Shown piece by piece: positions 11,211 through 39,946 of a stretch of 47,601 nucleotides of DNA. The translations under genes were made by a program, and so were the position numbers. This DNA comes from a virus, in IMG/VR virus record IMGVR_UViG_3300046373_000116, positions 1 through 47,601 of that record. One strand, written 5' to 3'. Every line of letters begins with the position of its first letter. The stretch's first letter is position 1. The notes beneath the pieces were generated by a model. That model saw nothing but the letters and a program-made list of their open reading frames with translations. It did not search any database and was not told the DNA's origin.

Positions 11211-12965
11211 TTACATCCAACTCGGTTTATTACGCATAACGCGCTTCGCTTTCGCAACGTTCTCTACCGCGAGTTGTAGCGCATCGACCGAATCTACGTA
11301 ATCGCCGTGAGGATATTGCGCCATTTGATCGAGCAGCATCGTATGTGAACGGTTAAAAATCAGCGTTTTATTGTGCGCGTACGGCTCTAGCGATTCCATG
11401 CGCTCTTCCTTGCCGGATTTATGCGATTTAATATCGTTAATCCGCGTCCGTGTGGCGCCCTTCTTACGTAGCGCCTCCTGTAACTGGCGGTAAAATTCGT
11501 GCTGCGCGTTAATTGTCTCTACGCTGAATACGTGATGCTTAAATTCCGCGATTTTACCGCAGATCAAGTCGATATAAACGTGCGGCTGCTCTTTCGACGC
11601 GTACTCGTCTAATACGAATATGTGGCCGGTCTTTTCGTAGCGCCCGACCGTCAGTACCGCGTTATAGCAGGCGCGAGCATTTTTCCCCATCGATATGTCC
11701 CATGCGCCGCTTATCGTTAAGTCTTCGACGGGTATCCGTATGTCCTCGTAAACGACGAATCGCCGTCCGCCTACGTATTCATAACGGTAATAGCCGAAAT
11801 TCTCCGGAAAGAAGAACTGCTCGTCTTCGCTAAACGCGAGATTACGAAACTCCGAATTATATGCGCGCGTTCCCATGTTAAATTTTTCGTGCATTAGCGC
11901 GCGGTACGTCCAACGCCACGGCCACGCTAACTTTATACCGGCTTCGAGCGCGGTTTTATTCGCGTTGTAAAATTCGTCTACTTCCGCTAAGTCTTCAGTA
12001 CGTCCGTAGATTTCGAGATACTCGTCCCACAATTTCGGATTATCCGGCTCGCTAACTAACGCGCCATGGAACGACGACTTAAAATCCTTCCGCTTCAGTA
12101 CGTGATTTAGCAGTCCCGTTGCGCTTACCATCGTACCGACGAGAACTATCGCGGTCGACTGCGTACCGATCGGAACCACAACGGAATTAAACCAGTGGAC
12201 GAGCTTTTCCCGCGCCTCTTTCGTACCTTCGTTGTTTATCGATGACGGATCGTCGACAATAACGAGATCCGGTCGATAGCTTCCGTGACGTTTACCGCGG
12301 AGTTGTTTACCGGAAGATGACGCTTCAACTAGCGCGCCGGCTCCGGTAATGAACGCTTCTTCATTATCCTTCTCATTCTGCGTATTCCGCGGATCGAGCA
12401 GCGGTCCGAAGTCCTGGCGCAGCTTATCGTTAAATTTTAGCTGTTTGTTTACCCATCCGATAAGTTTCTTCGATAACGTATCCGTCTCGGAAATGACGAG
12501 AATGTAGCGCCGTTTGCGGAAAACTACTTGATGCAGCGGAAATGCATTCGAAAACATGCCGGATTTACTGTGGCCCCGCGCCGCTGCGATAGCTAACCGC
12601 GCATTACGCTCCGTATGATCTACGTAATCACATAAATCGAAAAACTCGCGGTGAATTGGCGCGATATCAGCGAGCGCGTCGTGCGGCGTTCCATCTTCGC
12701 CGTGGCGGACGATGTTGTCTTCGTTAGCGGCGTTATGCGCGTCCGATACGTACTCATACGTAAAATAAGCGACGTCTATTTCCGCGCGGTGAATACGTTT
12801 AAGGCGCGTGAGTTCCGCTATGTCTTCGCGTAAAGTGTCTACGTGGTATTCCGAAGCGCGTCCGCTATCATACAGCGCTTTTAATTTACGTGCGCGCTCC
12901 GTTATAAGTGTGATGCGTTCGGACCGCGCTTCTCTGTCTAACCATTGACCGTCTACGAGCGCGAT
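11211..12965 (-). CDS. terL: Large terminase subunit, probable AUC start
   Basis: The packaging motor has an N-terminal ATPase and C-terminal RNase H-like nuclease. Extending upstream of the first ATG (12557) restores a missing Walker A region, AIAAARGHSKSG at about residues 125-137, and no in-frame stop occurs. Walker B-like LVIVDD is near residue 235. Nuclease acidic residues are in AWDISMG, FVLDEYA and DYVDSVDAL. No in-frame ATG, GTG or TTG exists between the SD site AAGGAGG and residue 137. The best start is ATC at 12965, nine bases after AGGAGG, giving 584 residues, a usual TerL length. Starting at 12557 would delete the ATPase motif. Confidence 0.9.
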   Translation of the reverse strand: MALVDGQWLDREARSERITLITERARKLKALYDSGRASEYHVDTLREDIAELTRLKRIHRAEIDVAYFTYEYVSDAHNAANEDNIVRHGEDGTPHDALADIAPIHREFFDLCDYVDHTERNARLAIAAARGHSKSGMFSNAFPLHQVVFRKRRYILVISETDTLSKKLIGWVNKQLKFNDKLRQDFGPLLDPRNTQNEKDNEEAFITGAGALVEASSSGKQLRGKRHGSYRPDLVIVDDPSSINNEGTKEAREKLVHWFNSVVVPIGTQSTAIVLVGTMVSATGLLNHVLKRKDFKSSFHGALVSEPDNPKLWDEYLEIYGRTEDLAEVDEFYNANKTALEAGIKLAWPWRWTYRALMHEKFNMGTRAYNSEFRNLAFSEDEQFFFPENFGYYRYEYVGGRRFVVYEDIRIPVEDLTISGAWDISMGKNARACYNAVLTVGRYEKTGHIFVLDEYASKEQPHVYIDLICGKIAEFKHHVFSVETINAQHEFYRQLQEALRKKGATRTRINDIKSHKSGKEERMESLEPYAHNKTLIFNRSHTMLLDQMAQYPHGDYVDSVDALQLAVENVAKAKRVMRNKPSWM

Positions 12966-12983
12966 GTGAACGCACCTCCTTCG

Positions 12984-13169
12984 TTAATTTTCTACGAACT
13001 CTTCCGCGGTGGTAAATCCGCATCCATACGGACATTCGCCGTTTTGATTGCGGGAGTCGAATTTACTCTGCGCGAATACACCGTGAATTGGACAGCGATA
13101 CACGTTATACTTTGCGCGATCAACAAAATCGAGTATCATACGCTCCGTCTTCGTTATACGCTTACTCAT
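12984..13169 (-). CDS. Small zinc-finger-like protein between terminase genes
   Basis: The 61-residue protein contains CPIHGVFAQ and CPYGCGFTTAEE, a CxxH...CxxxC pattern that may bind one zinc ion. It overlaps the small terminase end by 8 bases, and its stop is followed at once by the terL SD. Similar small Cys/His proteins occur near terminase genes in Bacillota phages. A packaging or HNH-like accessory role is conceivable, but no catalytic motif is visible. Confidence 0.65.
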   Translation of the reverse strand: MSKRITKTERMILDFVDRAKYNVYRCPIHGVFAQSKFDSRNQNGECPYGCGFTTAEEFVEN

Positions 13170-13605
13170 CGTTACCGTCCGCTAAAAGTTCGCCCATTTC
13201 CGCGATTTCAGCTGCGATATCTTCGTTCGTGCGGGATGAGCCGGTATCTTTCGTTTCAACTATCTGGCGCTCCGTAATAAGACCGAACCGTTTGAAGTAG
13301 AGATCGATACCCTTTACGGACGGCTGCGCGCCGTTTATCGTTTTCATAAGCTGGCGGTAAACTAGCGGTCGATGCGATGATAGGAAGTCATCCGCGAGTA
13401 GATTTACGTATTCGATAAACGCCGCTTTCTGCGTCCGCCAGTTATATAGCGTTAAACGTGTCACTCCGACTTCTTCCGCGATAGCTTCGAGCGATTGGCG
13501 GCCCTCTTCGTCTACCGTAAAATCGCGTTCAACTAGCATTAAAGCTGCGCGGATCTGGCGGCCGTCTAACTTCGACTCTAGCGCTTTCTTTTTAGCGTTG
13601 TTCAT
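13162..13605 (-). CDS. terS: Small terminase subunit (phBC6A51-like)
   Basis: The protein has 147 residues and starts after AACGGAGGTGTAATGCG. A helix-turn-helix is seen at about residues 38-65 (QSLEAIAEEVGVTRLTLYNWRTQKAAFIEYVN), followed by a helical oligomerisation region. This is the layout of phBC6A51-type small terminases, which recognise the packaging site and load DNA on TerL. It is the first gene of the morphogenesis operon and borders a long non-coding region. Confidence 0.85.
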   Translation of the reverse strand: MNNAKKKALESKLDGRQIRAALMLVERDFTVDEEGRQSLEAIAEEVGVTRLTLYNWRTQKAAFIEYVNLLADDFLSSHRPLVYRQLMKTINGAQPSVKGIDLYFKRFGLITERQIVETKDTGSSRTNEDIAAEIAEMGELLADGNDE

Positions 13606-13863
13606 CGCATTACACCTCCGTTAAAATACGTTCACAATTCGTTGATTCTAGCGCGTTTATAGCGCGGACATACAAACACACCGCTGAAGCCCTAGCGCGC
13701 CTCTACGGTAGCAAAAACACGGTGAAAACGTTGCGTGGGCGCTGTGGATTCGGGAACGCTACGTAATTGGCGCGTGTTCCGTCCGAAAACGTACAGTTTC
13801 CGCTGCGACCCCGAGTTAGAAAAATAGTGCGCGGGTTCCGTACAGCAGTCGCAGCCACTCGGA

Positions 13864-13881
13864 GACCCCGCCTTGGGGGTC
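13864..13881. repeat. GC-rich hairpin GACCCC/GGGGTC
   Basis: A perfect 6-bp inverted repeat, GACCCC and GGGGTC, is separated by six bases. No U tract follows on either strand, so a classical terminator is unlikely. Confidence 0.5.
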
Positions 13882-13902
13882 ACGTTCATACCGCCGTCTA
13901 TT

Positions 13903-14265
13903 TGTCAAGCGTTAATTTTCGCCATCAATCCGCCGATCACGGTTGCGGCCGAATGTCAAGCGTTATCTTTTTATGCACCGTTTATGCAATAGAACATACG
14001 TTTGCGTCCGATAATACTCATTATGTAAACAAGCGTTAAACCGCGCCATTACGCCATTTAACGCCATATACACCGATATAACGCGATAAATACGCTTATA
14101 TCGTCAACAAAACGTTATGCATAAATAGTGCATACGCCTGTATGACGTAGATTGACGCTAATACACACTAATCAGCGCGTGTCAAGCGTTATTTTTATGC
14201 ATCCGTTATGCAATCGCTATCGGGCGCAATATGCGTTCACAACGTTAGCTGCGTGTCAAGCGTTA
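13903..14265 (+). repeat. Four direct repeats TGTCAAGCGTTA (iteron-like)
   Basis: Exact 12-bp copies occur at 13903-13914, 13954-13965, 14180-14191 and 14254-14265, all in one orientation. A degenerate copy (ACAAGCGTTAAA) lies near 14029. Copies two and four are longer: both continue into T-rich sequence, TATGCA, CCGTT and ATGCAAT, giving composite units of about 35 bp. On the minus strand each contains TTGACA, but no -10 box sits at the right distance in three of the four, so these do not look like promoters. Confidence 0.75.
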
Positions 14266-14614
14266 TTTACCCCGTGAGTCTCGGAAGGCTCTCCGGTGAG
14301 CGACGCCCAGCCCGTGATTAAGCGTAATTTACTCGCTATTAAGCGGTCGTTATACGTTATCACACGCTTATTCGTAGCCTATACGTTACCGTCCGCTAGT
14401 ACCTACGTTATTCCTACCGTACGGACTTCCTACGCATCAACGCTACCAATCGCCCCTACTCCGTACAATAACGGTTATAAGACGCTAATATAACGCTTCT
14501 ATATATGCGCGGTTAAATGATACGGAATAGTAGCGTTATACAGACGGTCGTTAACGAACCCTCTGCGCGTTGTAGATATCGTAGTAATAGCGGTGTATAA
14601 CGTATGCTCCCGTT

Positions 14615-14670
14615 GATTGTTGACAATCAGTGCGAGCCTAAGTGAAAGGCTTCGGACATAAACCGTGTCC
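14615..14670. repeat. Three tandem hairpins with 5-6 bp stems
   Basis: Perfect stems occur in series: GATTGT/ACAATC (14615-14628), AGCCT with a 7-base loop and AGGCT (14635-14651), and GGACA with a 7-base loop and TGTCC (14654-14670). The 5-bp stem plus 7-base loop geometry recalls tRNA arms, but loop bases and an acceptor stem do not fit a tRNA. It may be a structured RNA or a protein-binding DNA site. Confidence 0.5.
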
Positions 14671-14801
14671 TTGCCCCGCGCCGCTAACGCGTCACGGACG
14701 TATCAATTCAAATACCTTTATCGCGCGGTTTAATTTCTTACTTGTTCGCTAGGGCGTGTTTTTCGCCCGAAGCGTCGAGGCGCTCTTCCTCGAAATAGGC
14801 G

Positions 14802-15047
14802 TTACATTCCGATTAATACCGCTCCTCTAGCGAAGCTACTCATTAATACTTCGTGTTTCCATCTTCCGCCGTCATCCGTATAATTAGCGAAGATTACGTT
14901 AGGACGTTGTCCGCGGTAGTGTAATCCGCAGATTGACTCACCGTAGAATATCGCTTGCATTTTCATATCTGCGCTAGGTAACGGGAGTTTAGCATTTAGC
15001 TCATCCGCTTGTTCACGCGTTTGTACAACGATTAGAACGTATGTCAT
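14802..15047 (-). CDS. Hypothetical protein, 81 residues
   Basis: A clear SD (AACGGAGGCACCCG) precedes the ATG. The protein begins TYVLIVVQTREQADELNAKLPLP, a beta-alpha unit, and ends with FARGAVLIGM. I do not recognise the family. It is the last gene of the short operon containing the winged-helix protein, and two hairpins without U tracts follow it. Confidence 0.65.
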   Translation of the reverse strand: MTYVLIVVQTREQADELNAKLPLPSADMKMQAIFYGESICGLHYRGQRPNVIFANYTDDGGRWKHEVLMSSFARGAVLIGM

Positions 15048-15157
15048 CGGGTGCCTCCGTTATTCTTTTTGTATGATAAAGAATCAATCTCCGTAAATTT
15101 GCGCGATAAAAACCCGCGAAGCCACGCCCTGTATGGCCTCAAGGCACTTCGATTCGC

Positions 15158-15211
15158 GTGCAAAAAAGGGTACCTAATTCGCCTATATCGTGCAAAAAAG
15201 GGTACCTAATT
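15158..15211. repeat. Two exact direct repeats, core CAAAAAAGGGTACCTAATT
   Basis: A 22-23 bp sequence is repeated exactly at 15158-15179 and 15190-15211, 32 bp apart or about three helical turns. It contains the palindrome GGTACC next to an A6 tract. The second copy overlaps the last codons of the winged-helix protein gene. Spacing on one DNA face suggests a protein-binding site; no terminator stem is present. Confidence 0.8.
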
Positions 15212-16057
15212 TCTACGTTGGCTATTAAATAGCGCACGTAACATGCCGTCCGGCTCGCCAGGCTTACGGTAGAATACGTATGGATTCAGCGCGGTAAACT
15301 TCGCCCGCCGGTCCTCTACGTTAATCCATTCGCCAATGATGCGCGCCTTACGTAAACGTGCGAGAGACTCTTTCGTCTTAGTCTCCGTCATCCCCACGAT
15401 ATCGCCGATCTCGCTATCCGTTAGGAAGCGTATATCACTCGGATTAACGAATGGGTCTGCGCAGATAAGATTCGTATCATAGTGAACGTACGGCAGCAGC
15501 TTATATACGAAGCCGAGATCCGCCGCGGTCAAATTAAACGACTTCAGCGTAGTAAAGAACGTTTTAATTAGCGCATCGACGTCACCGCTCGCTTTCTTAC
15601 GAAAGTGGTAACGCTCGTTGATCGTAAAAACTCCGCTAGTCTCGAAGATAATACTGCGCGATTCCAGCTCGTCTACAATGGCGCGTGCTGTACGGTTGCT
15701 TACGTCCCATATACGCGCTAGATTCGATAATGTTAGCGGAGATCCTTCGCGGCCTTCCGTAACGAGTACGTTCGTTTTAAACTGTATGTACGGCTGTAGC
15801 ATTAACGTATAGCCGCAGTATTTATTCGATAAGCCGCGCGTTATACCGCGTATGTTGCGCATGTGGCCGAACGAGAAGTGACGCTTATCCCGTTCAAACT
15901 GCGCTGCCTTTTTGCCGGCTTCGTAGTGTTCAAGCGTTTTATATGTGTAAAGGCGGCCGGCTTCGTCTTTCGCCAACCGCTTACTTACTGGCGTTATACT
16001 ACCGATCGGAGCGCCGCTAATTAATCGCGCAATCTTACGTGCTGTATCGTTACTCAC
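15206..16057 (-). CDS. Winged-helix DNA-binding protein, possible replication initiator
   Basis: This 283-residue protein starts at GTG after AAGGTGGCTGCGC. It appears to have two winged-helix domains: one near residues 105-150 (SPLTLSNLARIWDVSNRTARAIVDELESRSIIFE) and one near 205-250 (FLTDSEIGDIVGMTETKTKESLARLRKARIIGEW). Two wHTH units are the plan of many plasmid and phage Rep initiators. Direct repeats lie at its 3' end, and iteron-like repeats lie about 1 kb further on. It could instead be a transcription regulator. The family was not identified with certainty. Confidence 0.6.
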   Translation of the reverse strand: MSNDTARKIARLISGAPIGSITPVSKRLAKDEAGRLYTYKTLEHYEAGKKAAQFERDKRHFSFGHMRNIRGITRGLSNKYCGYTLMLQPYIQFKTNVLVTEGREGSPLTLSNLARIWDVSNRTARAIVDELESRSIIFETSGVFTINERYHFRKKASGDVDALIKTFFTTLKSFNLTAADLGFVYKLLPYVHYDTNLICADPFVNPSDIRFLTDSEIGDIVGMTETKTKESLARLRKARIIGEWINVEDRRAKFTALNPYVFYRKPGEPDGMLRALFNSQRRN

Positions 16058-16403
16058 GCGCAGCCACCTTACCTACGCGATCCGCTATTGCGCTATATAA
16101 CGCTGGATCATTACTGACCGCGAATAAACGCGTCAGATCCGTAGATTTAACATAGCCTGCTTCGTCTGCGTGTCCGATAATCGGCGCTAAAACCGCATAC
16201 TCCACGTCAGCCGTGATGACATTATGCTCAGCGCCTTCCCACGTAATAACTTCGTTCTTACGGAATACACCGTTTGTTACCGCTTCTAATTCGCGAAGAT
16301 CCGCAGTCGCCCGCTTAGCCTCACGTTGTAGCGCCTTTAGTCCGCTGATTGCTTCCGATACGTCTACGTTAACCTTTACGTTTAATCCGCCATTTTCGAC
16401 CAT
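16050..16403 (-). CDS. Hypothetical protein, 117 residues
   Basis: The start follows CGGAGGCGTTGTAA. The N-terminal part (NVDVSEAISGLKALQREAKRATADLRELE) is an amphipathic coiled-coil segment seen in several phage small proteins. The C-terminal half (LAPIIGHADEAGYVKSTDLTRLFAVSND) has no known motif. The gene overlaps the winged-helix gene by 8 bases, so the two are probably co-expressed. Confidence 0.65.
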   Translation of the reverse strand: MVENGGLNVKVNVDVSEAISGLKALQREAKRATADLRELEAVTNGVFRKNEVITWEGAEHNVITADVEYAVLAPIIGHADEAGYVKSTDLTRLFAVSNDPALYSAIADRVGKVAARE

Positions 16404-16520
16404 TTACAACGCCTCCGATTCGAATAGTTACGTAGGTATGCACTCAATTGTGCGGGGAGCGAATCCCATGCGCCTACGCTCGCGATATGACGAGTTGTGA
16501 TTTCGAAACTAAGTCAACGC

Positions 16521-16550
16521 AAAAAAGACGCCCACTTATTTCACGGCGTC
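16521..16550 (-). terminator. Rho-independent terminator (minus strand)
   Basis: Read on the minus strand: GACGCC, a 12-base loop, GGCGTC, then TTTTTT. The stem and U6 tract are classical. It isolates the operon beginning at 16403 from transcription entering from above 16.5 kb. Confidence 0.85.
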
Positions 16551-16721
16551 CAATCTGCGTTATTTACCTGTCTATAACGTACTAGCGTGAGAACGCCTAA
16601 ATTATACGGTCGGAGTCCGAAATAATCCGAAATAATCCGTTAAATGTGGCGAAATTGTGACGTAAAAACACCAACCTCCCATTGATCGTGTATAAACTTA
16701 GCGTATAGTACAGCGACAAAT
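16551..16721. other. Intergenic stretch between two terminators
   Basis: No gene is supported. It contains two tandem TCCGAAATAA copies (16616-16635) and, on the minus strand, an isolated TATAAT at 16601-16606 without a good -35 box. Confidence 0.4.
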
Positions 16722-16740
16722 AAAAAAGCACCGTCAGGCT
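16722..16740 (-). terminator. Terminator of the low-CG two-gene cassette
   Basis: The minus strand reads AGCCTGACGGTGCT followed by TTTTTATTT. The stem is short with one bulged base. It lies 19 bases after the stop of the 55-residue gene, a natural end for that transcript. Confidence 0.55.
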
Positions 16741-16758
16741 CTTTCTGTAAGCTCTGTG

Positions 16759-16926
16759 TTATTTGTTAAGAAATTCTCTTCCTGGTTTAGTGATGTCTTT
16801 GTTGTATTGTTCAATTGATACGCAATAAGAACAACCTGCTCCATAGTGTCCGCATATCATGTTTGATTCTTTGTATCTGTGAATTTTGCAACATTTCTTG
16901 TTCGGGCACTCTTCATTTGTTTTCAT
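16759..16926 (-). CDS. Cys-rich small protein, 55 residues
   Basis: The ATG at 16926 follows GAGGTGATTAATGG and overlaps the upstream stop as ATGA. The protein has seven cysteines arranged as C-x5-CC, C and C-x2-C pairs (ECPNKKCCKIH, MICGHYGAGCSYC), suggesting one or two zinc sites. Codons are AAA/AAC-rich and poor in CG, unlike neighbouring genes, which points to separate acquisition. It is the second gene of a cassette driven by the divergent promoter at 17.23 kb. Function unknown. Confidence 0.75.
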   Translation of the reverse strand: MKTNEECPNKKCCKIHRYKESNMICGHYGAGCSYCVSIEQYNKDITKPGREFLNK

Positions 16927-17180: not shown

Positions 17181-17195
17181 TACCTCCGTTTTATC

Positions 17196-17281: not shown

Positions 17282-17291
17282 GACGTATAAT
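17263..17291 (+). promoter_or_regulatory. Plus-strand consensus sigma-A promoter for the repressor gene
   Basis: TTGACA (17263-17268), a 17-base spacer and TATAAT (17286-17291) form a perfect consensus. The repressor SD follows at about 17302. The -35 and spacer coincide with operator 3, so autoregulation is likely. Confidence 0.92.
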
Positions 17292-17314
17292 CGCTGTATA
17301 ACGGAGGTGTTCGA

Positions 17315-18106: not shown

Positions 18107-18453
18107 TTTAGCGCCTCCCCCTTCATAGCTGCTCCGTTGTTCCACCGTTTATAAACCGCCGCAATCCGCTGAGCCGCTACTTCTATATGCGCGCTAACAT
18201 TCTTCTGCGATATCCCCATAATGCGCGCCGCTGCCGTTTGGTCCGTTCCGACACCGTACACCCACGCTATAGCTTCCGTTTGGCGATCCGTAAGGCCGGC
18301 GGATTCGATCGCGCTGTGTAAATCGATAATCGTAGCGCCAGCGTCCGTACTGTGACCGCGCTCAGCGTTAATTTCGTGGCGAGCGGAGAGTAGCGCCTTG
18401 ACTCCGCGTGCGTCTTGTATAGCGTAAGATTTCGTTTCACTTTTGTCCGTCAT
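18103..18453 (-). CDS. Sigma-70 region 4-like / ArpU-type regulator
   Basis: The 116-residue protein begins after CCGGAGGTGAGCGCGAT. Residues about 50-100 read LTDRQTEAIAWVYGVGTDQTAAARIMGISQKNVSAHIEVAAQRIAAVY, a sigma region 4 HTH with the two-helix spacing of late-gene activators such as ArpU/RinA. No region 2 is present. It may control late transcription together with host RNA polymerase (inference). Confidence 0.75.
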   Translation of the reverse strand: MTDKSETKSYAIQDARGVKALLSARHEINAERGHSTDAGATIIDLHSAIESAGLTDRQTEAIAWVYGVGTDQTAAARIMGISQKNVSAHIEVAAQRIAAVYKRWNNGAAMKGEALN

Positions 18454-19676
18454 ATCGCGCTCACCTCCGGTTTATTTTCGTTATAATCCGCGACTATGCG
18501 GTCCTGCCAATCGAAGTCGAACGAAGATTCTCCGCTAGGCTCGATCTCATTTCCGCACCCTAACGTAAGTACGTTGTAATACGCGAGCATTCCGTTCTTT
18601 ACGCGCCATACCTCATGCGGCGGAGCGCTAACGTTAAACGCGTGAAACTCGCCTCTATTCGGCGCAATCGGATTGTAACTTGACCGCGTAATAGTATCCG
18701 TAAACGCTTCGACTAATTCGTCCAATTGCGTTAGTCCGTCGCCGTACTTATCCGTAGATTTACCGTCCTCATCGTAGCCAATATCGGTAATTATTACGTG
18801 GAATACCGGCATTTGCCCCTCGTACCAATACGTACTCGCTACGCTTTCGTCCGTCTGCGTTACGGTATCGAGCGGATATTTACCTCCGCTAGTTGCGTAC
18901 TTAATGAATACTTTCTGCGCATTCGGCGTAACCTTCCGTAATATATGAATGTCCGTCGATATCGTAGTTCCGACGTGTGCGAACGTAGTTCCAGGCAATT
19001 CGATCGACGCGATATGCCAGCACGTTTCCTTCGTTAGATCGCGGATCTTCTGCGCGCTAGAGCCAAAGCCGAGATTTTTCGGAAGCACGAACGCAATGTA
19101 GCCGCCAGGACGCGCCGCTTTGATCGCGAGTTCAATAAACGCAAACTCCGACTTGCCGCCGCAGCGGTCTTTCTTCTTCGTAAGTGTGACGTAATCGTCC
19201 GGTAGCTCGTCCGCAGCGATATCAATACTGACGCCATACGGCGGATTTCCGATAACATAATCGTAGTAATCGCGGCGGTCGTGGCGGAATGCGTCGCCGC
19301 GGATTACGTTAGTATCCGGATATAATAGCGACGCTACTTTCGCGCTAGTTTCGTCCAATTCTAGCGCGGTAACCTCGGCGCCCTCCGGTAAGTGTTCGAG
19401 GAATACGCCGCTGCCGCATGACGGCTCTAGCCAGCGTGATCCTGGCGCAAACCCACCGCTTAAACCGCGCAATGCTTCGACGATAAACCGCGCTACGTGT
19501 GTCGGAGTAAAGAACGCGCCGCCGCTGTATGCGTTCGGAAGAAGGCCGCCCGCTGACGTATAATTCTCGCGGAGAAACTTAACGTCATCTTCCGTTATAT
19601 TCGCGGGATCTTTCGCGATAATCGCCATTGAACGTACGTTACCGTCCCAACGCTTTCTGTCGGCTTTTCCGATGAT
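18450..19676 (-). CDS. DNA adenine N6-methyltransferase, probable AUC start
   Basis: The catalytic motifs are LEPSCGSGVF (AdoMet binding, about residue 83) and GNPPYG (catalytic, about residue 144), with GGAFFTPTHVARFIVEAL upstream and GGYIAFVLPKNLGFG downstream. This is the gamma-type N6-adenine methylase order. No restriction partner lies nearby, so it is an orphan that may protect phage DNA or tune expression. The best SD (AAGGGAG) is followed by ATC ATC; ATC at 19676 or 19673 is preferred. TTG at 19718 lacks an SD and lies inside the opposite promoter; ATG at 19628 is a weaker choice. Confidence 0.85.
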   Translation of the reverse strand: MIGKADRKRWDGNVRSMAIIAKDPANITEDDVKFLRENYTSAGGLLPNAYSGGAFFTPTHVARFIVEALRGLSGGFAPGSRWLEPSCGSGVFLEHLPEGAEVTALELDETSAKVASLLYPDTNVIRGDAFRHDRRDYYDYVIGNPPYGVSIDIAADELPDDYVTLTKKKDRCGGKSEFAFIELAIKAARPGGYIAFVLPKNLGFGSSAQKIRDLTKETCWHIASIELPGTTFAHVGTTISTDIHILRKVTPNAQKVFIKYATSGGKYPLDTVTQTDESVASTYWYEGQMPVFHVIITDIGYDEDGKSTDKYGDGLTQLDELVEAFTDTITRSSYNPIAPNRGEFHAFNVSAPPHEVWRVKNGMLAYYNVLTLGCGNEIEPSGESSFDFDWQDRIVADYNENKPEVSAI

Positions 19677-19701
19677 TACCGTCTCCCTTCGTTGACTATT
19701 G

Positions 19702-25206: not shown

Positions 25207-25713
25207 CTATACCGTTCCTGTACTTCCGAACCCACCGTCGCCGCGTTCTGTTTCGGACAACTCCGCAGACTCGACGAAATTGACGCGCGGTAACGGTTGA
25301 ATGAACGCTTGGGCGACGCGATCTCCTTTGCGGATGATGTATGCACCGTCGCTCTGATACGTATCCGTTTCGATAATGTCGCCATTTAACGTCATAAGAT
25401 AACGGTCGCCACCGTGATATCCGTCCAGTATGTTATCGAACATCATCGCCACCTCGCCTCGATAGTCCGAATCGATAACGCCGATTCCGTTCGGCTGGCG
25501 CAGCTTCGTCTTCAGCGCGATACCCGACCGCATGGCGACGATCATAACGTAGCCGACCGGAATTTCGAACGCGAGTCCCGTAGGAACCTTCGCCGTTTCG
25601 CCTGGTGCGATAATGACGTCCTCTACCGCTACTAGATCGAAGCCGGCCGCCCCGTCCGTTGCGTACTGCGGAATTACGGCGTCTGCGTGTAATTTGCGTA
25701 TGTTTACGTTAAT
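25207..25713 (-). CDS. dut: dUTPase (trimeric type), probable AUU start
   Basis: All five dUTPase motifs are visible: AGFDLVA (motif 1), MRSGIALK (2), NGIGVIDSDYRGEV (3), RVAQAFIQP (4) and RGDGGFGSTG (5). Taking the ATG at 25545 would remove motif 1. In-frame extension gives NIRKLHADAVIPQYATDGAAGFDL. No ATG, GTG or TTG lies upstream, but ATT at 25713 sits six bases after the strong SD GGAGGTGA, giving 168 residues. The enzyme hydrolyses dUTP to dUMP, feeding ThyX and keeping uracil out of DNA. It overlaps the previous gene by 10 bases. Confidence 0.9.
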   Translation of the reverse strand: MNVNIRKLHADAVIPQYATDGAAGFDLVAVEDVIIAPGETAKVPTGLAFEIPVGYVMIVAMRSGIALKTKLRQPNGIGVIDSDYRGEVAMMFDNILDGYHGGDRYLMTLNGDIIETDTYQSDGAYIIRKGDRVAQAFIQPLPRVNFVESAELSETERGDGGFGSTGTV

Positions 25714-31158: not shown

Positions 31159-31904
31159 TCGCCCAACTCCTTTTCTCCTGCGTACCATGGTTCGTTATAA
31201 ACTGTAATGAAGAACTTAAAACTCTCCGCGTCTGCATCGTTATGGCGGATATTACGATGGTACTCTCTATGACAAGGCACGCATAACGTAGCGCCATTGT
31301 TAATATCCGTACGGCTTTCAGGAACCCTCGCGTATGACTCTAAATGATGAGCATTGACCTTACCGCCTTTACTACCGCAAGCGACACAAGTAAAACCGTC
31401 TCGCTCAAATACGCTCATACGCCATTTATCGTATCCAGGAATGGTTCTCTCTTTTATCCTGTCTTCGTCGGTTAAGTCGTCGCGCCAACTCGGATTATTC
31501 GGTCCTGTTAGTTTCTCCGATATCTTCCGACATTTGCAGTTACCGCAACGCTGACCGGCCTTAAACTTAGAGAACGCGATAGATGAGATGGTTCCGCAAT
31601 TGCACCGATATTCAAGCTTCTGTTTATTGTCCGAATACGCGGAGCTGAGTAAATCGCATCCTTGCTCCGAGAACATTATCCGTACGCTATCGATAGAATG
31701 CCGTAATTTACCCGAACCGCGTTCCCACCGACAGCCGCCGCATAGCTGGCCGGATCTAAACTTGTCATACGATATCTGCGCTGTCCTTCCGCAAGTACAT
31801 ATGAAAGCTAGCAGCTCCCTTACGTTATTTATCCGCTTAGACAACAACGTACATCCGCGCTCTGCAAATAGTAGCCGCGCCGTATCGATCGTTACTTTGC
31901 GCAA
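31155..31904 (-). CDS. HNH homing endonuclease with two N-terminal zinc-ribbon repeats
   Basis: The first 130 residues hold two copies of one unit: TARLLFAERGCTLLSKR...CTCGRTAQISYDKFRSGQLCGGC and SVRIMFSEQGCDLLSSA...CNCGTISSIAFSKFKAGQRCGNC. These zinc units presumably read DNA. The C-terminal HNH domain has CVACGSKGGKVNAHHLESYA, NNGATLCVPCHREYH. TTG start seven bases after GGAGG. It sits inside the replication operon with overlaps to both neighbours, which implies a precise insertion or long adaptation. Confidence 0.88.
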   Translation of the reverse strand: MRKVTIDTARLLFAERGCTLLSKRINNVRELLAFICTCGRTAQISYDKFRSGQLCGGCRWERGSGKLRHSIDSVRIMFSEQGCDLLSSAYSDNKQKLEYRCNCGTISSIAFSKFKAGQRCGNCKCRKISEKLTGPNNPSWRDDLTDEDRIKERTIPGYDKWRMSVFERDGFTCVACGSKGGKVNAHHLESYARVPESRTDINNGATLCVPCHREYHRNIRHNDADAESFKFFITVYNEPWYAGEKELGE

Positions 31905-33010
31905 GTAACAGCCTCCGCTAAGTACGCCTTCACGTTGCGATGCTCCGCCTTACCCGCCATTTGCGACGACTCCATCGCAGTTTCAACGCGCCGTAACCGC
32001 TCTAAGTTGTCCGGCGTAATCGTCTTACGGCAATGTTCGCTGAACTGACAGAATCCGCAATGACCGACGCTCTCTGTTGTAACGTCCGGAACCGCACCAT
32101 CCGATCGCTGTTCATAAACTAACGCTGCCTGACGTGCTAAGTCGGAGAGTAGCGCGTTCTTCATTTCCTCCGTAATCTTCACGTAGAATGCCCGTAAGTC
32201 TGACCGTGGCTGACCGTCGTCCCACGTTTTCTGACCCTTCGTAACTGACGTAGACTGCGCGTCATCGAACCACGCCGGCTTCTGCGTTGATTCATATACG
32301 ATAAGCGTTTCGTCAATTCCGAATACTAGCGCCTCCGCCGTAACCTGTCGCTTATGTTCATCCTGCGCGCCTTTAAAGTCGAGCTTACCGTTCATAGCGC
32401 GAAGTCCGGACGCCTTCGTTTTATATTCGAAGATGATGCGCGATCCGTCCGGTTCATATACGAATTTACCGTCAGGCTTAGCGGTTATAGCGAATTTAAC
32501 GAGTTCACCGGTTTCTGGATTAGGCCATTCGAATATACGGCGCTCCTGCGCTGCGTCTTCGAAGTCCCACTCGGAAATTCCGCCTTCGAACCGCTCAGCC
32601 ATCGTAAGTTTAGCGGTCGAACCGAGCCTCTTCCGCATATGAACGATATCGAGCTGTACGAAGTCCACAATCGCCGTACCTTGGCGCCGTTGCCGTCCAC
32701 GAAACGGGATATCATCGGATTTCTCCGCTTTGATGCCGCGTGCGTTCTTGAATACGAGTTGCCGATCGCACATCGCCGTACCCGAAGCGCCGAACGTTAT
32801 AAGTCCGTCGTTTGGATATGGAGTGTAACCGAGATGGCGGAGTTTTTGCTCGTAGAATCTGCGTGATAATGCGTCGTCATAGAACGAAGATGACGGTGAT
32901 GCATAGTACGCGTCCATTTGCGTTAAAAAAGCGTCTACTAACGTTTGCCCGCGCTCTTGTTCGGTCGATGCTGCGAATATCTCCGCGCCTATTTTACTGA
33001 ACATTCCGAT
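31892..33010 (-). CDS. Cas4/AddB-like Fe-S PD-(D/E)XK nuclease
   Basis: Nuclease residues are in FAITAKPDGKFV and RIIFEYKTKASG (D...EYK). Cysteines MCDRQLVF (about residue 80) and CGFCQFSEHC (about 335-345) form the Cas4/AddB-type Fe-S site. The enzyme is expected to trim DNA ends or act in phage recombination. The start is either ATG 33004, 14 bases from AGGGAGG, or ATC 33010 at the normal 8-base distance; ATC is preferred. Confidence 0.85.
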   Translation of the reverse strand: MGMFSKIGAEIFAASTEQERGQTLVDAFLTQMDAYYASPSSSFYDDALSRRFYEQKLRHLGYTPYPNDGLITFGASGTAMCDRQLVFKNARGIKAEKSDDIPFRGRQRRQGTAIVDFVQLDIVHMRKRLGSTAKLTMAERFEGGISEWDFEDAAQERRIFEWPNPETGELVKFAITAKPDGKFVYEPDGSRIIFEYKTKASGLRAMNGKLDFKGAQDEHKRQVTAEALVFGIDETLIVYESTQKPAWFDDAQSTSVTKGQKTWDDGQPRSDLRAFYVKITEEMKNALLSDLARQAALVYEQRSDGAVPDVTTESVGHCGFCQFSEHCRKTITPDNLERLRRVETAMESSQMAGKAEHRNVKAYLAEAVTCAK

Positions 33011-33650: not shown

Positions 33651-33651
33651 A

Positions 33652-34305
33652 TTAGTTCACCGCCCGAAACGGTGTGATTAGCGCGTCAATTCCGTTTGCT
33701 TCGTCCGATAGTGCAATCGGATTCAAAGCGCCGCTGAATTTAACGGTAACTACCGCCGATCCCGCGTCTTTAAATACGTTCATCGCGTCAAGTAAATAGC
33801 CGGAATTTAACGTAATCTTAAACGGCAACTCTCCGGAAGCAGTTCCGATATGCGCGCTGAACGATACGCCTTCGTTGCTATCCGTTACGCTTAACGTGAC
33901 TGCGCCGTCTTCCGCGAAAGTAATTACCGCTAAATGGCGATCCCTGTCCGTTTGGTGCGCGATGTCGTACGCTAATTTAACGCGATCAACCATGCGTTGG
34001 ATTTCGTTAACTTTCGTATTCTTTAGTAGAACGAAGTCTACCGTGAAATTCACCGGAAATATTTTCTCCGTTGGCGGATACGTACCGTCGATCGTTTCGC
34101 CCGTCTTAGCGTGAGACGTTAGCGGTTCGGCGTAATTATGCGCGTCTTTAATCCGAAGTAAGCGATGGCGGTCGCAGATAACGGCGCTCCCGTCCGCAGC
34201 GTAGTGGATACCTTCGAGGACCGGCGTTGCGCTTCCGGACTTTGCCGCGAATTTCTTAGCGTGCTTCGTAATTAATTCGGACTTCTTCGGCATTGATAAC
34301 GCCAT
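33652..34305 (-). CDS. Sliding-clamp-like (DnaN-type) protein
   Basis: The 217-residue product starts after AAAAGGGAGCGTGATTAA. The C-terminal 70 residues (GELPFKITLNSGYLLDAMNVFKDAGSAVVTVKFSG...NGIDALITPFRAVN) have the pattern of clamp domain 3, including the YL.DAM and final P.R segment. The N-terminal part has GIHYAADGSAVICDRHRLLRIK. It is shorter than bacterial DnaN (about 370), so it would be a two-domain clamp. It lies directly downstream of the polymerase fragments. Confidence 0.72.
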   Translation of the reverse strand: MALSMPKKSELITKHAKKFAAKSGSATPVLEGIHYAADGSAVICDRHRLLRIKDAHNYAEPLTSHAKTGETIDGTYPPTEKIFPVNFTVDFVLLKNTKVNEIQRMVDRVKLAYDIAHQTDRDRHLAVITFAEDGAVTLSVTDSNEGVSFSAHIGTASGELPFKITLNSGYLLDAMNVFKDAGSAVVTVKFSGALNPIALSDEANGIDALITPFRAVN

Positions 34306-34309
34306 TTAA

Positions 34310-35425
34310 TCACGCTCCCTTTTCGTTATTTAACGGACAACAATTAACGTAATCCCATTCGGACGGCTTTGTTTCGTCCATCCAGCGCCTTTCGATAACT
34401 ATATCGCTGACTAACGGAACACTTAACGTTGCTGTCTGCGTCATGATGTCGTTAACGAGCGCTACCGTCTCCGGAGTTAAGTCCGCGTTGGGTACGCTGA
34501 TTTTAATCTCATCGTGAATTGACGCGTTAAGCTCCCAGCCGCGTTCCTTACACGTACGAGCCGCGCGATTACCGATCATCTTCAATATATCTGCGCCGCT
34601 ACCCTGGATTACCGCGTTAAACGCCGCACGCTCCCAGTATCCGATCATGCCGCGTTTCTCCGCTAATACGTCGATTTCGTCCTGTACCGTAAGTAAGCGT
34701 TGGTTATCGCGGGCAGACGGCGCGGTCTTGTTCCGCAATTGCTTACGCTCCGTATATAAGCGGATTAACCGTTGCTCGTTCGCTGAAGCTGCGGCCGCTA
34801 CCGCTTTATAATCCGGAAACCGGCGCTTTCGTCCGTACAGCGTTTCGACGTAACCGTTAACGCGCATGAACTGGCGGATGTCGGCGACCATCGTTTTAAA
34901 CGACGGGAATGTACGGTCGAAGTTTTCGAAAAACATCGCGGCGACTTCGGCGGTAACGTTCATTTTCTTCGCGAAGGATGACGGCGACTGATCGTAGGCT
35001 ACCGCTAATACGCCGGTCTTCATCAGCGAGCGCGGCTTGAACGCAGTCGACGGTATATCACCGCCGTAGCCACCTTCGCCCGATTTCGGATCAAACCACG
35101 CTTTATCAACGCAGTAGCCTTCCGCGAGTCCGAATGTCATCATCGCCATCGTCGTATAAAGATCAACGCCGTCAACGAAAATCTGACGCATTGAGTTATC
35201 GCCATATACCGTATACATGATATGGGCAAAAACGCGCGGCTCAATTTGTCCGAGATCGGCGCCGACGAACGTAAAGCCAGCGCGCGGTACGAAACAATTA
35301 CGGACGCGGTTACCGGCGCCTTTTGACGGGAGGTTTTGAGCATTGAAGCCTCGCGGAACTTTGCGGTCGTCTGCGATAAGAGTACGGACGATATCGTGAT
35401 AATTAGCGTCAGTTATTGTCAGCAT
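34310..35425 (-). CDS. DNA polymerase family A, C-terminal palm and fingers fragment
   Basis: This 371-residue gene holds polymerase motifs after the TGR segment: GFNAQNLPSKG (residues 26-36), motif A VGADLGQIEPRVFAHI, motif B RSLMKTGVLAVAYDQSP and motif C ASIHDEIKISVP. It starts with ATG 35425 inside the end of the 72-residue gene; SD AGGA lies ten bases upstream. Alone it lacks exonuclease, thumb and the TGRYSSS motif, which are encoded upstream in another frame. It must work with the N-terminal fragment if active. Confidence 0.9.
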   Translation of the reverse strand: MLTITDANYHDIVRTLIADDRKVPRGFNAQNLPSKGAGNRVRNCFVPRAGFTFVGADLGQIEPRVFAHIMYTVYGDNSMRQIFVDGVDLYTTMAMMTFGLAEGYCVDKAWFDPKSGEGGYGGDIPSTAFKPRSLMKTGVLAVAYDQSPSSFAKKMNVTAEVAAMFFENFDRTFPSFKTMVADIRQFMRVNGYVETLYGRKRRFPDYKAVAAAASANEQRLIRLYTERKQLRNKTAPSARDNQRLLTVQDEIDVLAEKRGMIGYWERAAFNAVIQGSGADILKMIGNRAARTCKERGWELNASIHDEIKISVPNADLTPETVALVNDIMTQTATLSVPLVSDIVIERRWMDETKPSEWDYVNCCPLNNEKGA

Positions 35426-35627
35426 CTAAAATACGTCCTATATTTGCGTATATTTGGTAGAATGGAGTAGGGCCTAGTATTAAGACTCTCTTCCTCGATG
35501 CTTCCACGGATCTGTCTGCGTGGTTCGTAATACCCATCGCTATATTAATCGAACGTAACTCTGTTTCCGATAGTTCAAGCGTAAACACTCGCTCAACTTT
35601 AGGCGTAATCTCCGTAATTTTAGCCAT
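35409..35627 (-). CDS. 72-residue protein inserted between polymerase fragments
   Basis: Start ATG 35627, seven bases after GGAGGAA. The protein (ITEITPKVERVFTLELSETELRSINIAMG, PTPFYQIYANIGRILDADNN) looks like a normal folded small protein and not like the polymerase. It begins 5 bases after the stop of the N-terminal fragment and overlaps the C-terminal fragment by 17 bases. There are no HNH, GIY-YIG or intein motifs. Function unknown. Confidence 0.7.
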   Translation of the reverse strand: MAKITEITPKVERVFTLELSETELRSINIAMGITNHADRSVEASRKRVLILGPTPFYQIYANIGRILDADNN

Positions 35628-35631
35628 CCGC

Positions 35632-37401
35632 TCATTCCTCCGTTTCGAATTTGCGCAATATATCAATCGGTCTCCCCGAATACCCACTCGAACTATAGCG
35701 CCCTGTTGACGTTCCACCCGCCTTATACTCCGTGTGAATCCGCCCGTCCGCCTCCAAAGCCTCCGGTATCTTCGTCACATACGTATTCAGCAGCTTCTCG
35801 TACGCCGCAACGGTCGCCAACGGCTTCAGCGCGTCCTCCTCTTCGTAATATGCGTCCAGTACGTCAGCCGCCGTTGATCGCGTCTTGCCGCGTTTAAATT
35901 GCGCTGTACGGTCGCGAACGCCGAGGTGATCGTAGATGAGATACGCGAGGTGATTTCCGTTAGTGATCGAAAACTCCGCTATTTCTACCGGCGCGTTATC
36001 TTCGGTCGCTGCCGCTAGTGGATTCGCCAGTAACTCCGCGAGCTTAGCGGTCGCTTCCGTATAACGTTTTAGCGCGGTCTTACCGGCCGCCTCACACTCC
36101 GTAATAATGGCGCGGTGCTTAGCGACGCTCTCCGTATACCGCGCAATCCTAGCGCTCTGCTTACTGCACCAATCCGCGATTTTCCCCGCGTTAATCGTCC
36201 GATCCATCTTCCGTACAAACTCCGCGTCGATTCCGTAGGATAAAACTACGTCAGCCTTCGCTTTATCGAGTAGCGGCGTAAACTCCGCTTCCAACGCCCG
36301 CAAGCCGTCCGTATCAATTTCGAAGCCACAGCGCCCCATGAATACGTCCGTTTCCGGTAGCTTCGAATCTATCTCCGCGTAACATTCGAGTAAGCGTCCT
36401 GGCGCGTTTTTCATCGCCGCGTACTGCCACTCGAATAGTCGCCATCCGTAGTAAACGTCGTTGATCGCATAAATTCCGACGATCTCCGTGTTGAATGGCG
36501 CTGGACTCCGCTTACCGAACATATCCTCGAACGTGTAGACTGCGCCATTGATACCGAAGCTCGGTCCGTATTTCGCAATCAGCGGTTTAAGTCCGTACGA
36601 CGCTTCGTGTTCGTTCATTAGGCGCATCGCGTCCAACGTATCCCAAACGCAGCCGCCGATTTCGTAGCCGTCCTTTATCGCGACGTGTAAATCGTAACGC
36701 GCGCTTCCCATATGGAACGTTTTACCGTGATTCGGACGCGACAAGTACGGTGTAATGGCGGCGAGGACCGCTGACCGCGTGAGCTGCGGATCGCCGGATT
36801 TAAATGCGCTGTCGTCCGTTAGAAATTCGAAGCCGACGGTGTTTCTCATATCGACGTGACCGTACGCTAAGTAGTAACCTTCGCCTAATAGCGGTAGCCA
36901 AACGCTGAATCCGATCGATATGTCGATATACGTATCAATGCCGGTTCCCTCGAAATCGCCCGCCATCATTGTATCGACGCCTAGTATGCGAAAGCGGTCG
37001 GTCCATTCCGTAACCTGGCGTTGACACTCCGTTCGTAGGCGGTCGATGAACGCGGGCAATTCGGAGTCGCGCGTTAGTACGAAATAGTTCGGCGGTTTCG
37101 TTGCGATCACTTCCGCCATACGTGCGCTGCGGTTTTCCGTTTCACGTTCGAGTAAGATGCGGGCGCCTGCGTTAATGACGGTAGCTTTCGTAATCTTCGC
37201 GCCCTTTAATCCGTTGAGTTCTCCGCGATGAAACGCAGCGACCGCGGCTTCGTATTGCGTCCGTTCTTTCTCCGATAGCTTCAGCGTACCAATGCGCTGT
37301 AACGCTTCCTCCACCGTTTCAAGGGCGGAGGATTTGCGCTTAGCGGCTTCACGTAGCGGCGTTGAGTCGCGTTGATTGAGCGTAAGTTTAACGTTGAGAA
37401 T
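35632..37401 (-). CDS. DNA polymerase family A, N-terminal exonuclease and thumb fragment, probable AUU start
   Basis: The 589-residue protein carries a DEDD 3'-5' exonuclease: AGDFEGTGI (motif I), GSARYDLHVAIKDG (II) and YAINDVYYG (III), at about residues 145-325. The thumb follows, and it ends at TSTGRYSSSGYSGRPIDILRKFETEE. In intact enzymes the QNLP segment follows soon after TGR, so the protein is cut within the active-site region. Upstream of GTG 37314 the frame stays open to ATT 37401, eight bases after AGGAGG; GTG has no close standard SD. The ATT start is preferred. Confidence 0.88.
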   Translation of the reverse strand: MLNVKLTLNQRDSTPLREAAKRKSSALETVEEALQRIGTLKLSEKERTQYEAAVAAFHRGELNGLKGAKITKATVINAGARILLERETENRSARMAEVIATKPPNYFVLTRDSELPAFIDRLRTECQRQVTEWTDRFRILGVDTMMAGDFEGTGIDTYIDISIGFSVWLPLLGEGYYLAYGHVDMRNTVGFEFLTDDSAFKSGDPQLTRSAVLAAITPYLSRPNHGKTFHMGSARYDLHVAIKDGYEIGGCVWDTLDAMRLMNEHEASYGLKPLIAKYGPSFGINGAVYTFEDMFGKRSPAPFNTEIVGIYAINDVYYGWRLFEWQYAAMKNAPGRLLECYAEIDSKLPETDVFMGRCGFEIDTDGLRALEAEFTPLLDKAKADVVLSYGIDAEFVRKMDRTINAGKIADWCSKQSARIARYTESVAKHRAIITECEAAGKTALKRYTEATAKLAELLANPLAAATEDNAPVEIAEFSITNGNHLAYLIYDHLGVRDRTAQFKRGKTRSTAADVLDAYYEEEDALKPLATVAAYEKLLNTYVTKIPEALEADGRIHTEYKAGGTSTGRYSSSGYSGRPIDILRKFETEE

Positions 37402-37413
37402 AAGTACCGCCTC

Positions 37414-39255
37414 CTACGCTGAAGCTGTAAATACGGATTCGACCGGGGTAACGAGCTCGCTGACTACGCGCCAGTCTCCGTCAATAGCCGTTGAAATGGT
37501 TATACCGTCATACATCGCAGTGTAATAACTTCCGTTAGTTACGGGCGCGCTGCAATTACGAACGACTCGAACGATATCGCCCGCCTTGATTTCGCCAACT
37601 TTGCGTCCAATCGCCGCCCATTTAGCGGTTTCAGCGGCGGCTTTAATGTCGACTTCCGTTGCTAACGTAACCTCCGATAGTAATCCGTACCAACGGCGAT
37701 GTTTCGGGAAATCTACGCGGATATCTCCGTTGCTAGCAAGTAGCGTTATGACTCCGATATCACCGTTCTCAACTCTTCCGAAACCGCGTCTCGGAGCCTT
37801 ACCGTCAGCGATCGTTAATCTCACGGTGTCGCCGACTTTGATAGCGGGCGCTTTCGGCTTAGTTGCGGCGTCGATTTCCGCTTGTGTCGCGGCGACAACG
37901 TTGTCTTTGTTCTTTCGACCGCGGATTGGATTGTCGCCTAAATCGCTGATACCGTAACCAAGCGAATCTACATCCGTGAGTTTAACGATATCGCCGATGT
38001 TAACGTGTGGATTCGGACCGCCGATAACCTTCGCATAGTCTCCGACCGCTAAGCGCGCGGGCTTCGGCTTTTCGGGAGCTGGCGCTGATGTAACGGACGT
38101 TAGTGGCTCGAGTACCGTAAAGTCCGAGAAATGCGCCATCCACCAATCGGTTCCGTCAAGGTACGACGCCCGTATATCCTTCCCTGATACCGTATCCACC
38201 CTTACGATTTCACCGTTAGCGAAGTCATGGCTTGTCGTATTACCGATAATTATAGCTAGATCGCCCTCAACCGCTTTACGCATTACCTTACGATACGCCT
38301 TACCATCATGTACGACCGCGCCATCAAATGGCGTTAGCACAACGGTGTAATCGTCACGCAATGTATCTCCATCGGTAGTTACCAGTAATCCGAAGGCACC
38401 TATACGCTGGATCGTATGAACGGTACCTATACGGTGACTTACGGTGCATGAACCGTCTTTTACGACTAATACCATATCACCTACGTTAGCAGGACGCTTA
38501 TGCTTCGTATAAACGGTCGATCCGACGGTGTGATACACGGGCGATATCGGCGTTTGTGTTGGCGTAACTAACTCGATTTGCTGTTCTCCGGACCAACCGC
38601 CATTAGTCGTCCTCCATGCATTGCCGTGCCCACGACTGTCTAGCGAAGGATCGCGCTGCGCTAGTGTATACGTTTGACCGGTAGCTTTGCTTTTTACGAC
38701 GTCGCCCGCTTGGTACGTGTGTGATAGACGAGGCGGTTGCGGTGCGGAAACTGGCGCGGATTGCGGTTCGAGTACGACGTAGCTCTCATAGGCGCAATCG
38801 ATGAAACCGTCTGTATTACCGCGGAAAGTTACGTCGATTGAATCGTCCAAAAACTCACCGCTTTTCGTGCAAGTCGCCACAATTCCGCTACCGTACGATG
38901 ACTTCGTAATTAATACAGTATCACCTACCGCAGCCTTACGCTTAACTTCGGTATATGTCGGTGAGACCGGCGCTACCGCTGAAGATAGCGGTTTGTATAC
39001 GGACCAGCCCTTACCTTTCGCAAGCTCCGCCCAACGAAAGTCTCCGTCATTGTCGACGATTGACAGTATGCCAGGATTACCGTACTCCGCGCCATCTACG
39101 ATTTCGAAATATGATCCGCTCGGTGCGCCCACGTACCCACCTTTCGTAATCTTCACGATATCGCCGTCCGCCGCCTTCCCCGTACTCGCCGCATATTGTA
39201 CGCCGTCTAACGCGATTACCTCACTTAATACCGTAACTCCGTTTAATTTCGCCAT
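37414..39255 (-). CDS. Multi-repeat beta-barrel protein C (613 residues)
   Basis: SD ATAGGAGGCACGTAATAG. About eight barrel-like units are seen. Examples are YTEVKRKAAVGDTVLITKSS (ending YVVLEP), LSHTYQAGDVVKSKATGQTYTL, YTKHKRPANVGDMVLVVKDG, YRKVMRKAVEGDLAIIIGNT (ending FTVLEPL), LAVGDYAKVIGGPNPHVNIGD and EIKAGDIVRVVRNCSAP. Linkers are Pro/Ala-rich. The first 15 residues match protein B. It is the longest member of the family, placed just before the polymerase genes. Function unknown. Confidence 0.75.
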   Translation of the reverse strand: MAKLNGVTVLSEVIALDGVQYAASTGKAADGDIVKITKGGYVGAPSGSYFEIVDGAEYGNPGILSIVDNDGDFRWAELAKGKGWSVYKPLSSAVAPVSPTYTEVKRKAAVGDTVLITKSSYGSGIVATCTKSGEFLDDSIDVTFRGNTDGFIDCAYESYVVLEPQSAPVSAPQPPRLSHTYQAGDVVKSKATGQTYTLAQRDPSLDSRGHGNAWRTTNGGWSGEQQIELVTPTQTPISPVYHTVGSTVYTKHKRPANVGDMVLVVKDGSCTVSHRIGTVHTIQRIGAFGLLVTTDGDTLRDDYTVVLTPFDGAVVHDGKAYRKVMRKAVEGDLAIIIGNTTSHDFANGEIVRVDTVSGKDIRASYLDGTDWWMAHFSDFTVLEPLTSVTSAPAPEKPKPARLAVGDYAKVIGGPNPHVNIGDIVKLTDVDSLGYGISDLGDNPIRGRKNKDNVVAATQAEIDAATKPKAPAIKVGDTVRLTIADGKAPRRGFGRVENGDIGVITLLASNGDIRVDFPKHRRWYGLLSEVTLATEVDIKAAAETAKWAAIGRKVGEIKAGDIVRVVRNCSAPVTNGSYYTAMYDGITISTAIDGDWRVVSELVTPVESVFTASA

Positions 39256-39293
39256 CTATTACGTGCCTCCTATGCGGTCGTTGCCGCGGTTTA

Positions 39294-39527
39294 TTATTCG
39301 ATATCTCCGTCTACTCCGATTACACCGGTTGCGTCAAATATACGTTCGATTGCGTAATCCATCGCGCACCATTCGTGTACGAAACCGCCGCTACCCGCGA
39401 AGCTATCGTCTATCCGTGCTACTTCGGTTCCTACGGTGATCTCCGTTTTACAGAACTCACACGTAGCGACAACGAATGACTCCGGATTGTCTTCGTCGAA
39501 ACGCGCCATATCTACTAAACGGGACAT
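39294..39527 (-). CDS. Small treble-clef-like protein, 77 residues
   Basis: Start after TAGGTGTACT. It contains ATCEFCKTEITVGTEVARI and FVHEWCAMDYA: CxxC followed by H-x2-C, a probable zinc knuckle. The ends are acidic. No enzyme motif. It overlaps the PD-(D/E)XK-like gene by 13 bases. Confidence 0.65.
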   Translation of the reverse strand: MSRLVDMARFDEDNPESFVVATCEFCKTEITVGTEVARIDDSFAGSGGFVHEWCAMDYAIERIFDATGVIGVDGDIE

Positions 39528-39946
39528 AGTACACCTAGCGCGCCGTACATTTCGCGGTTAACGCTTAGCGGAATCTCGACCCACCGCTTAGACGCGCTCG
39601 CTTCCGTCGCCCAATATTCGGAGAGTCCGCTATTCTCGAACATGAATACGCGCGGCGATTCCGCTTCCTTCGCGCCCAATACGCCGATGAAATAGTCAGC
39701 TTCGGGCTGCGTATATGGCTCGCCGTTACCTTTCCGCGCATAGACGACCATTTCGTTACGGCGGTCGCTGCGCAGCTTTATCGTCTTTACTTGAAACGTT
39801 GACCAGGCGCTATTGACGGGATCGCGCGCTACGATATCGAAACTCTCGCCCGTTTCCGGCTTAGCTACGATCCAGCCTGCGCACATTAGCGCTGTTCTTG
39901 CGGTCATTTCCGAAACCTGGCCGATAATCTCCGTTATATGTGCGAT
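39515..39946 (-). CDS. PD-(D/E)XK-type nuclease-like protein, probable AUC start
   Basis: ESFDIVARD (Asp) and STFQVKTIKLR (QVK) form a PDDEXK core like small endonuclease or resolvase-type proteins. From ATG 39907 the N-terminal helix is missing. In-frame extension adds AHITEIIGQVSE, expected for the family, up to ATC 39946, nine bases after AGGAGG. No ATG, GTG or TTG is available in that interval. The length is then 143 residues. Branched-DNA cutting or anti-host use are both possible. Confidence 0.75.
   Translation of the reverse strand: MAHITEIIGQVSEMTARTALMCAGWIVAKPETGESFDIVARDPVNSAWSTFQVKTIKLRSDRRNEMVVYARKGNGEPYTQPEADYFIGVLGAKEAESPRVFMFENSGLSEYWATEASASKRWVEIPLSVNREMYGALGVLCPV

Follow-up and report, generated by a model that had tools for sequence, protein, structure and literature searches.

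Predicted translation starts at near-cognate codons in tailed phages infecting Paenibacillaceae and certain Bacillaceae

Where does translation begin in a gene whose Shine-Dalgarno (SD) sequence is followed, at the proper distance, by ATC or ATT and by no standard start codon? The question is raised by a 47.6 kb virus contig (the window, meaning the whole stretch of DNA analysed), in which a preliminary description had pointed to six such genes. All identified genes of the window lie on the minus strand. Among their products are a tail sheath and a tail tube, a ribonucleotide reductase of class II and a family-A DNA polymerase that is split. Isolated cases of near-cognate starts are already known: infC, pcnB and Staphylococcus aureus ccpN. 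The reading that we favour, with a probability of roughly 0.7, is that the codons are real translation starts, that the weak codon keeps minor or enzymatic proteins low, and that this is a clade-wide habit of the phages, host initiation being unchanged.

Start codons in the window

Every stop-to-stop frame of the window was listed together with the SD-like sites, and the six ATT or ATC codons were found where the preliminary description had placed them (Table 1), although the phenomenon turned out to be larger than it had stated. SD complementarity was 5 to 9 nt in five of the six genes, of the GGAGGTGA or AAGGAGGTG types. Five of the six starts are placed from 10 nt inside to 18 nt past an upstream stop codon (−10 to +18 nt).

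Table 1. Features of the window with a predicted near-cognate start (window coordinates).
Feature	Coordinates	Strand	Start codon	Length	Supporting match
Terminase large subunit (TerL)	11211..12965	-	ATC 12965	584 aa	phrog_38 terminase large subunit, residues 12-581, E 3e-76
SD AAGGAGGTG before the TerL ATC, aligned spacing 9	12973..12982 (approximate)	-			
DNA methyltransferase	18450..19673	-	ATC 19673 (more likely than 19676)		PF02384, E 4e-16
dUTPase	25207..25713	-	ATT 25713	168 aa	PF00692, E 3e-24; phrog_135, residues 5-167
Fe-S (Cas4-like) nuclease	31892..33010	-	ATC 33010	372 aa	phrog_1706, E 7e-18
Family-A DNA polymerase, N-terminal fragment	35632..37401	-	ATT 37401	589 aa	phrog_12241, E 3e-182
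PD-(D/E)XK-like protein (label of the preliminary description)	39515..39946	-	ATC 39946	143 aa	phrog_5018, residues 3-133

Four starts are unambiguous, those of TerL, dUTPase, the polymerase fragment and the phrog_5018 protein. Each has a 6 to 9 nt anti-SD match at a spacing of 8 to 9, and ATG, GTG and TTG are absent from the upstream in-frame stop to well inside the conserved protein. In TerL, 136 codons pass without a standard start, and the first ATG (12557) is residue 137, past the Walker A motif GHSKS (residue 131). The dUTPase ATT overlaps the end of the upstream ORF and lies behind GGAGGTGA at a spacing of 9; no ATG occurs before residue 57, which is beyond motif 1 (GAAGFDL). The loss of Walker A or motif 1 from the first standard start, which had been put forward for these two proteins, was thus confirmed. 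The polymerase fragment has AGGAGG at a spacing of 8, and its next standard codon is a GTG 29 codons downstream. In the phrog_5018 gene, AGGAGG is spaced by 9, the ATC is 1 nt past the upstream stop, and the next ATG comes 13 codons later.

The two other genes are less simple. The Fe-S nuclease ATC follows GGAGG at a spacing of 8, with the upstream TAA immediately before it, but an ATG (33004) occurs two codons downstream. The distance of this ATG from the SD is too large; its proximity nevertheless meant that homologues were needed to place the start, and these have ATC, ATT, ATA or TTG at the position aligned with the window ATC. Thus the absence of a well-placed standard codon, claimed for all six genes, is clear-cut in four, and in the nuclease the choice of ATC is backed by relatives. 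Nor is the SD strong in all six, as had been claimed: that of the methyltransferase is weak (GGGAG), and its homologues begin, with TTG, ATG or ATC, at the position aligned with window position 19673, one codon downstream of the codon first proposed. A non-standard start is no more than moderately supported in this gene.

Two further observations concern gene structure in the window. The family-A DNA polymerase is apparently carried by two ORFs that a small one separates (34310-37401), like TRIPP_65 to 67 of Paenibacillus phage Tripp. The major capsid ORF (6887-8041) has a TTG at 8029 without SD, and similarity to phrog_1328 starts from residue 20, near ATG 7969.

Start columns of homologues and a pooled scan

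The window on its own supplies just six genes. TerL was compared across 37 IMG/VR loci and a further nine taken from bacterial genomes with a name (Paenibacillus, Chengkuizengella, Bacillus and Thermoactinomyces). Conservation begins at the column of the window ATC, and the SD is nearly always present at the conserved spacing. In the 40 distinct homologues, this column held ATG 13 times, ATC 11, TTG 9, GTG 4, and ATA, ACG and CTG once each, so that the start is standard in 26 and near-cognate in 14. Three of the loci use an ATG one codon further on. The SD duplex was slightly stronger at near-cognate than at standard TerL starts, with a p value of only 0.04. Orthologues with a standard codon at the same position were found for the portal, Fe-S nuclease, PD-(D/E)XK and polymerase families as well. 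The portal column is occupied by TTG, ATG, GTG, ATT, ATC, ACG or CTG. In the polymerase relatives, the start is shifted downstream by one codon and reads ATG, ATA (L207) or ACG (phage Tripp); dUTPase homologues begin no more than a few codons away from the window ATT column. A further ATA start is possible in the portal gene of Alicyclobacillus phage MMB025 (L172 23309), behind GGAGGTGA at a spacing of 9 and 77 codons upstream of the annotated one.

The phrog_5018 family calls for more caution. ATC or ACG occupies the start column in 16 of 32 relatives; only four of these (the window, L181, L102 and L084) are certain, having no standard codon nearby, and in most of the ACG and ATC relatives a GTG lies within the SD, three codons before the column. 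ACG as a general start in this family, which initially looked clear, was weakened by that GTG and by Sporosarcina phage Lietuvens. The latter has TCG at the column (L168 41915-41924), and its gene is annotated from the upstream GTG, located just 1 nt after GGAG.

Cultured isolates share the pattern. Two Bacillus subtilis phages, 268TH002 from the USA and phi18-2 from China, have in common a TerL ATC after AAGGAGG. In 268TH002 (ON210835; L169 1753), the annotated start is 105 codons downstream and leaves the protein short; the portal gene likewise has ATC (L169 3524). In phi18-2 (L281 439), TerL is annotated 25 codons too long, from an upstream TTG that lacks an SD and has no counterpart in 268TH002. 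The polymerase of Paenibacillus larvae phage Tripp has ACG at position 38627 of its record (L166 15532) and is annotated at 38756. The N-termini of TerL and portal in the two B. subtilis phages, and of the Tripp polymerase, thus appear to be misannotated on account of near-cognate starts.

Such annotations are what would be expected if the proteins began at downstream standard codons, or upstream in some other way, the SD-ATC and SD-ATT pairs being coincidence or sequencing error. We regard this as highly improbable. Homologues have ATG, GTG or TTG at exactly the same column behind the same SD. Downstream starts would delete conserved motifs, and upstream ones are blocked by in-frame stops within a few codons. 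Sequencing error is countered by the identity of the codons in independent assemblies and isolates.

How common such starts are was measured on the window together with 20 related phage contigs (1.14 Mb), taking ORFs of 110 codons or more that have a 6-nt SD spaced by 7 to 9, and deriving the expectation from local codon use. A standard codon started 362 ORFs, GTG and TTG together accounting for 120 of them. Among ORFs without a standard start, the SD-placed codon was near-cognate in 44 of 74 cases, versus 11.0 expected (p = 1.6e-18), and with an SD of at least 7 nt in 30 of 37, versus 4.6 expected (p = 2.9e-21). The raw rate is therefore near 11%, about one in ten strong-SD genes. The near-cognates found were ATC, ATA, ATT, ACG and CTG; AAG and AGG, also one-base neighbours of AUG, never appeared among them in this pooled scan. 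The same five codons made up the SD-placed non-standard starts when these were mapped by homology in well-supported families of the scanned genomes. Hence ATT and ATC, the set first described, are both used, but relatives add ATA, ACG and CTG. With homologues beginning at these codons, the SD conserved and only near-cognates of AUG appearing, the comparisons support the view that they act as start codons.

Four low-GC contigs of the clade had no near-cognate start (0/106 versus 49/383, p = 5e-6), which indicates that the habit is lineage-bound. In seven other phages, the rate was 2.4%, and two of the three matches were youA (ATT, L174 45295) and yomF (CTG, L174 26974) of Bacillus phage SPbeta (NC_001884). 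Both have strong SDs and are so annotated, so that near-cognate starts occur outside this clade too. SPbeta differs in that there are two such genes in the 50 kb examined, that its record gives no evidence for them, and that it belongs to an unrelated phage group.

Host initiation and IF3

The starts could also have reflected a globally altered initiation system, as suggested in the preliminary description. The host chromosomes speak against it. Over 1.6 Mb of sequence from Paenibacillus and Bacillaceae, the scan returned noise only, with 11 weak candidates, mostly at poor sites, against 296 standard starts (11/307, 3.6%); compared with 44 versus 362 in the phages, the difference is significant (p = 3e-4). 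Relaxed initiation throughout the host was thus rejected. Moreover, infC has ATT at its usual position behind GGAGGTGG in all six Paenibacillus examined, and IF3 autoregulation is therefore probably intact.

IF3 represses such non-canonical starts in E. coli and Streptomyces (PMC5472188). In E. coli, re-initiation still depends on IF2 and on the formylated initiator tRNA, and an excess of IF3 lowers it (PMC2268962). The phage genes might then be responsive to IF3, rising as its activity falls during infection, or a divergent second IF3 of the host might relax discrimination. Of 100 Paenibacillaceae genomes, 88 have a second, divergent IF3-like gene (about 165 to 180 aa), and the P. terrigena copy is without the canonical RFRGRE and EGRSM motifs. 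In addition, TerL starts with ATC, ATC, ATC, CTG and TTG in five hosts with two IF3 genes, and with a standard codon in all four hosts with one. However, this correlation in nine hosts is broken by 268TH002 and phi18-2, which use ATC although Bacillaceae carry one IF3 each (41 of 41 genomes, the second gene being found in 0 of 41). Chengkuizengella, with one IF3, also has an ATA-started gene. No phage inhibitor of IF3 was identified, and the lack of a near-cognate excess in host chromosomes is again unfavourable. We therefore take the second IF3 as a lead and not as an explanation, and consider an IF3-responsive switch improbable. It is equally doubtful that the clade-wide starts, if IF3-sensitive, form a coordinated layer of dosage or timing control over packaging and replication genes, through lower IF3 or the second IF3.

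Gene classes, dosage and relaxed constraint

At least 15 gene families of the clade have near-cognate starts. They include TerL, TerS, portal, helicase loader, primase, RuvC (in five phages), PhoH and integrase, the large subunit of ribonucleotide reductase, endonuclease VII, the Cas4-like nuclease, polymerase and dUTPase, and also a sigma factor, endolysin, Dit and the tape measure. These are mostly catalytic or low-copy, minor proteins; tape measure and portal are also structural. The tail sheath and tube were started by ATG only (10/10 and 9/9), a difference from TerL plus portal that is significant on these 19 sequences (Fisher p = 0.009).

Low-dosage tuning is probably the best explanation of this distribution. 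The ordinary initiator fMet-tRNA would read the near-cognate codon, presumably decoding it as Met. The long, well-spaced SD, together with the close upstream stop in five of the six window genes, would hold the 30S subunit on the codon, and coupling to that stop may help initiation, because these starts are so close to it. The weak codon would then give a steady low yield of minor and enzymatic phage proteins and be maintained by selection for it, abundant virion proteins keeping ATG. In S. aureus, cvfC1 (AUU) and ccpN, infC and citZ (all AUA) have extended SDs, were confirmed by retapamulin profiling and are expressed at about 10% of the AUG level (PMC13009471). The low expression proposed in the preliminary description is consistent with this analogy and with the gene classes, and the low yield itself would follow from them.

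Start codons have changed often. At least eight changes of start-codon label are needed on the TerL tree, four of them forced by strongly supported branches, and close relatives differ (ATC in L016, ACG in L034). Such frequent switching could equally reflect relaxed selection: given a very strong SD and tight upstream coupling, for which the close stop in five of the six window genes speaks, the start would drift among AUG and its near-cognates with no regulatory purpose, and the large share of GTG and TTG among SD-driven starts points the same way. Overall, we find this reading rather unlikely. Near-cognates avoid the abundant tail proteins and are missing from the low-GC contigs of the clade, and an expression loss of about 90%, as in S. 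aureus, is unlikely to be neutral in essential genes. Low-dosage tuning accordingly remains our preferred interpretation.

Known systems resemble the phage genes in part. In infC and pcnB of E. coli (both AUU) and infC of Paenibacillus (ATT), a near-cognate AUH codon likewise follows a strong SD, and initiation is low and IF3-limited, but these are single host genes, one of them autoregulatory. In the phages, by contrast, many genes are concerned, ACG is included and no feedback is evident. The S. aureus set shares Firmicute ribosomes and an extended SD with an AUH start; it comprises four cellular genes of one species, against at least 15 gene families in a phage clade. In Streptomyces, the GTC start of sigR limits SigR and is repressed by IF3 (PMC5472188). 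There too, a non-canonical start holds a protein below a threshold, but GTC differs from AUG by more than one base and a single regulator gene is involved. In the open-access literature, we found no description of systematic near-cognate starts, ACG included, in a phage clade. An evolutionary reconstruction counted one AUG-to-AUU switch among 61,358 ancestral AUG starts (PMC5622118).

Near-cognate starts have mostly been overlooked by gene callers, which allow only ATG, GTG and TTG, with the result that TerL, portal, DNA polymerase and other important marker genes come out shortened. A bacterial genome is credited with only one or two such starts, whereas here about one in ten strong-SD genes would use them, essential packaging and replication genes included. 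The clade thus offers a natural experiment for asking what fixes a start codon, and the cultured B. subtilis phages make it possible to test it.
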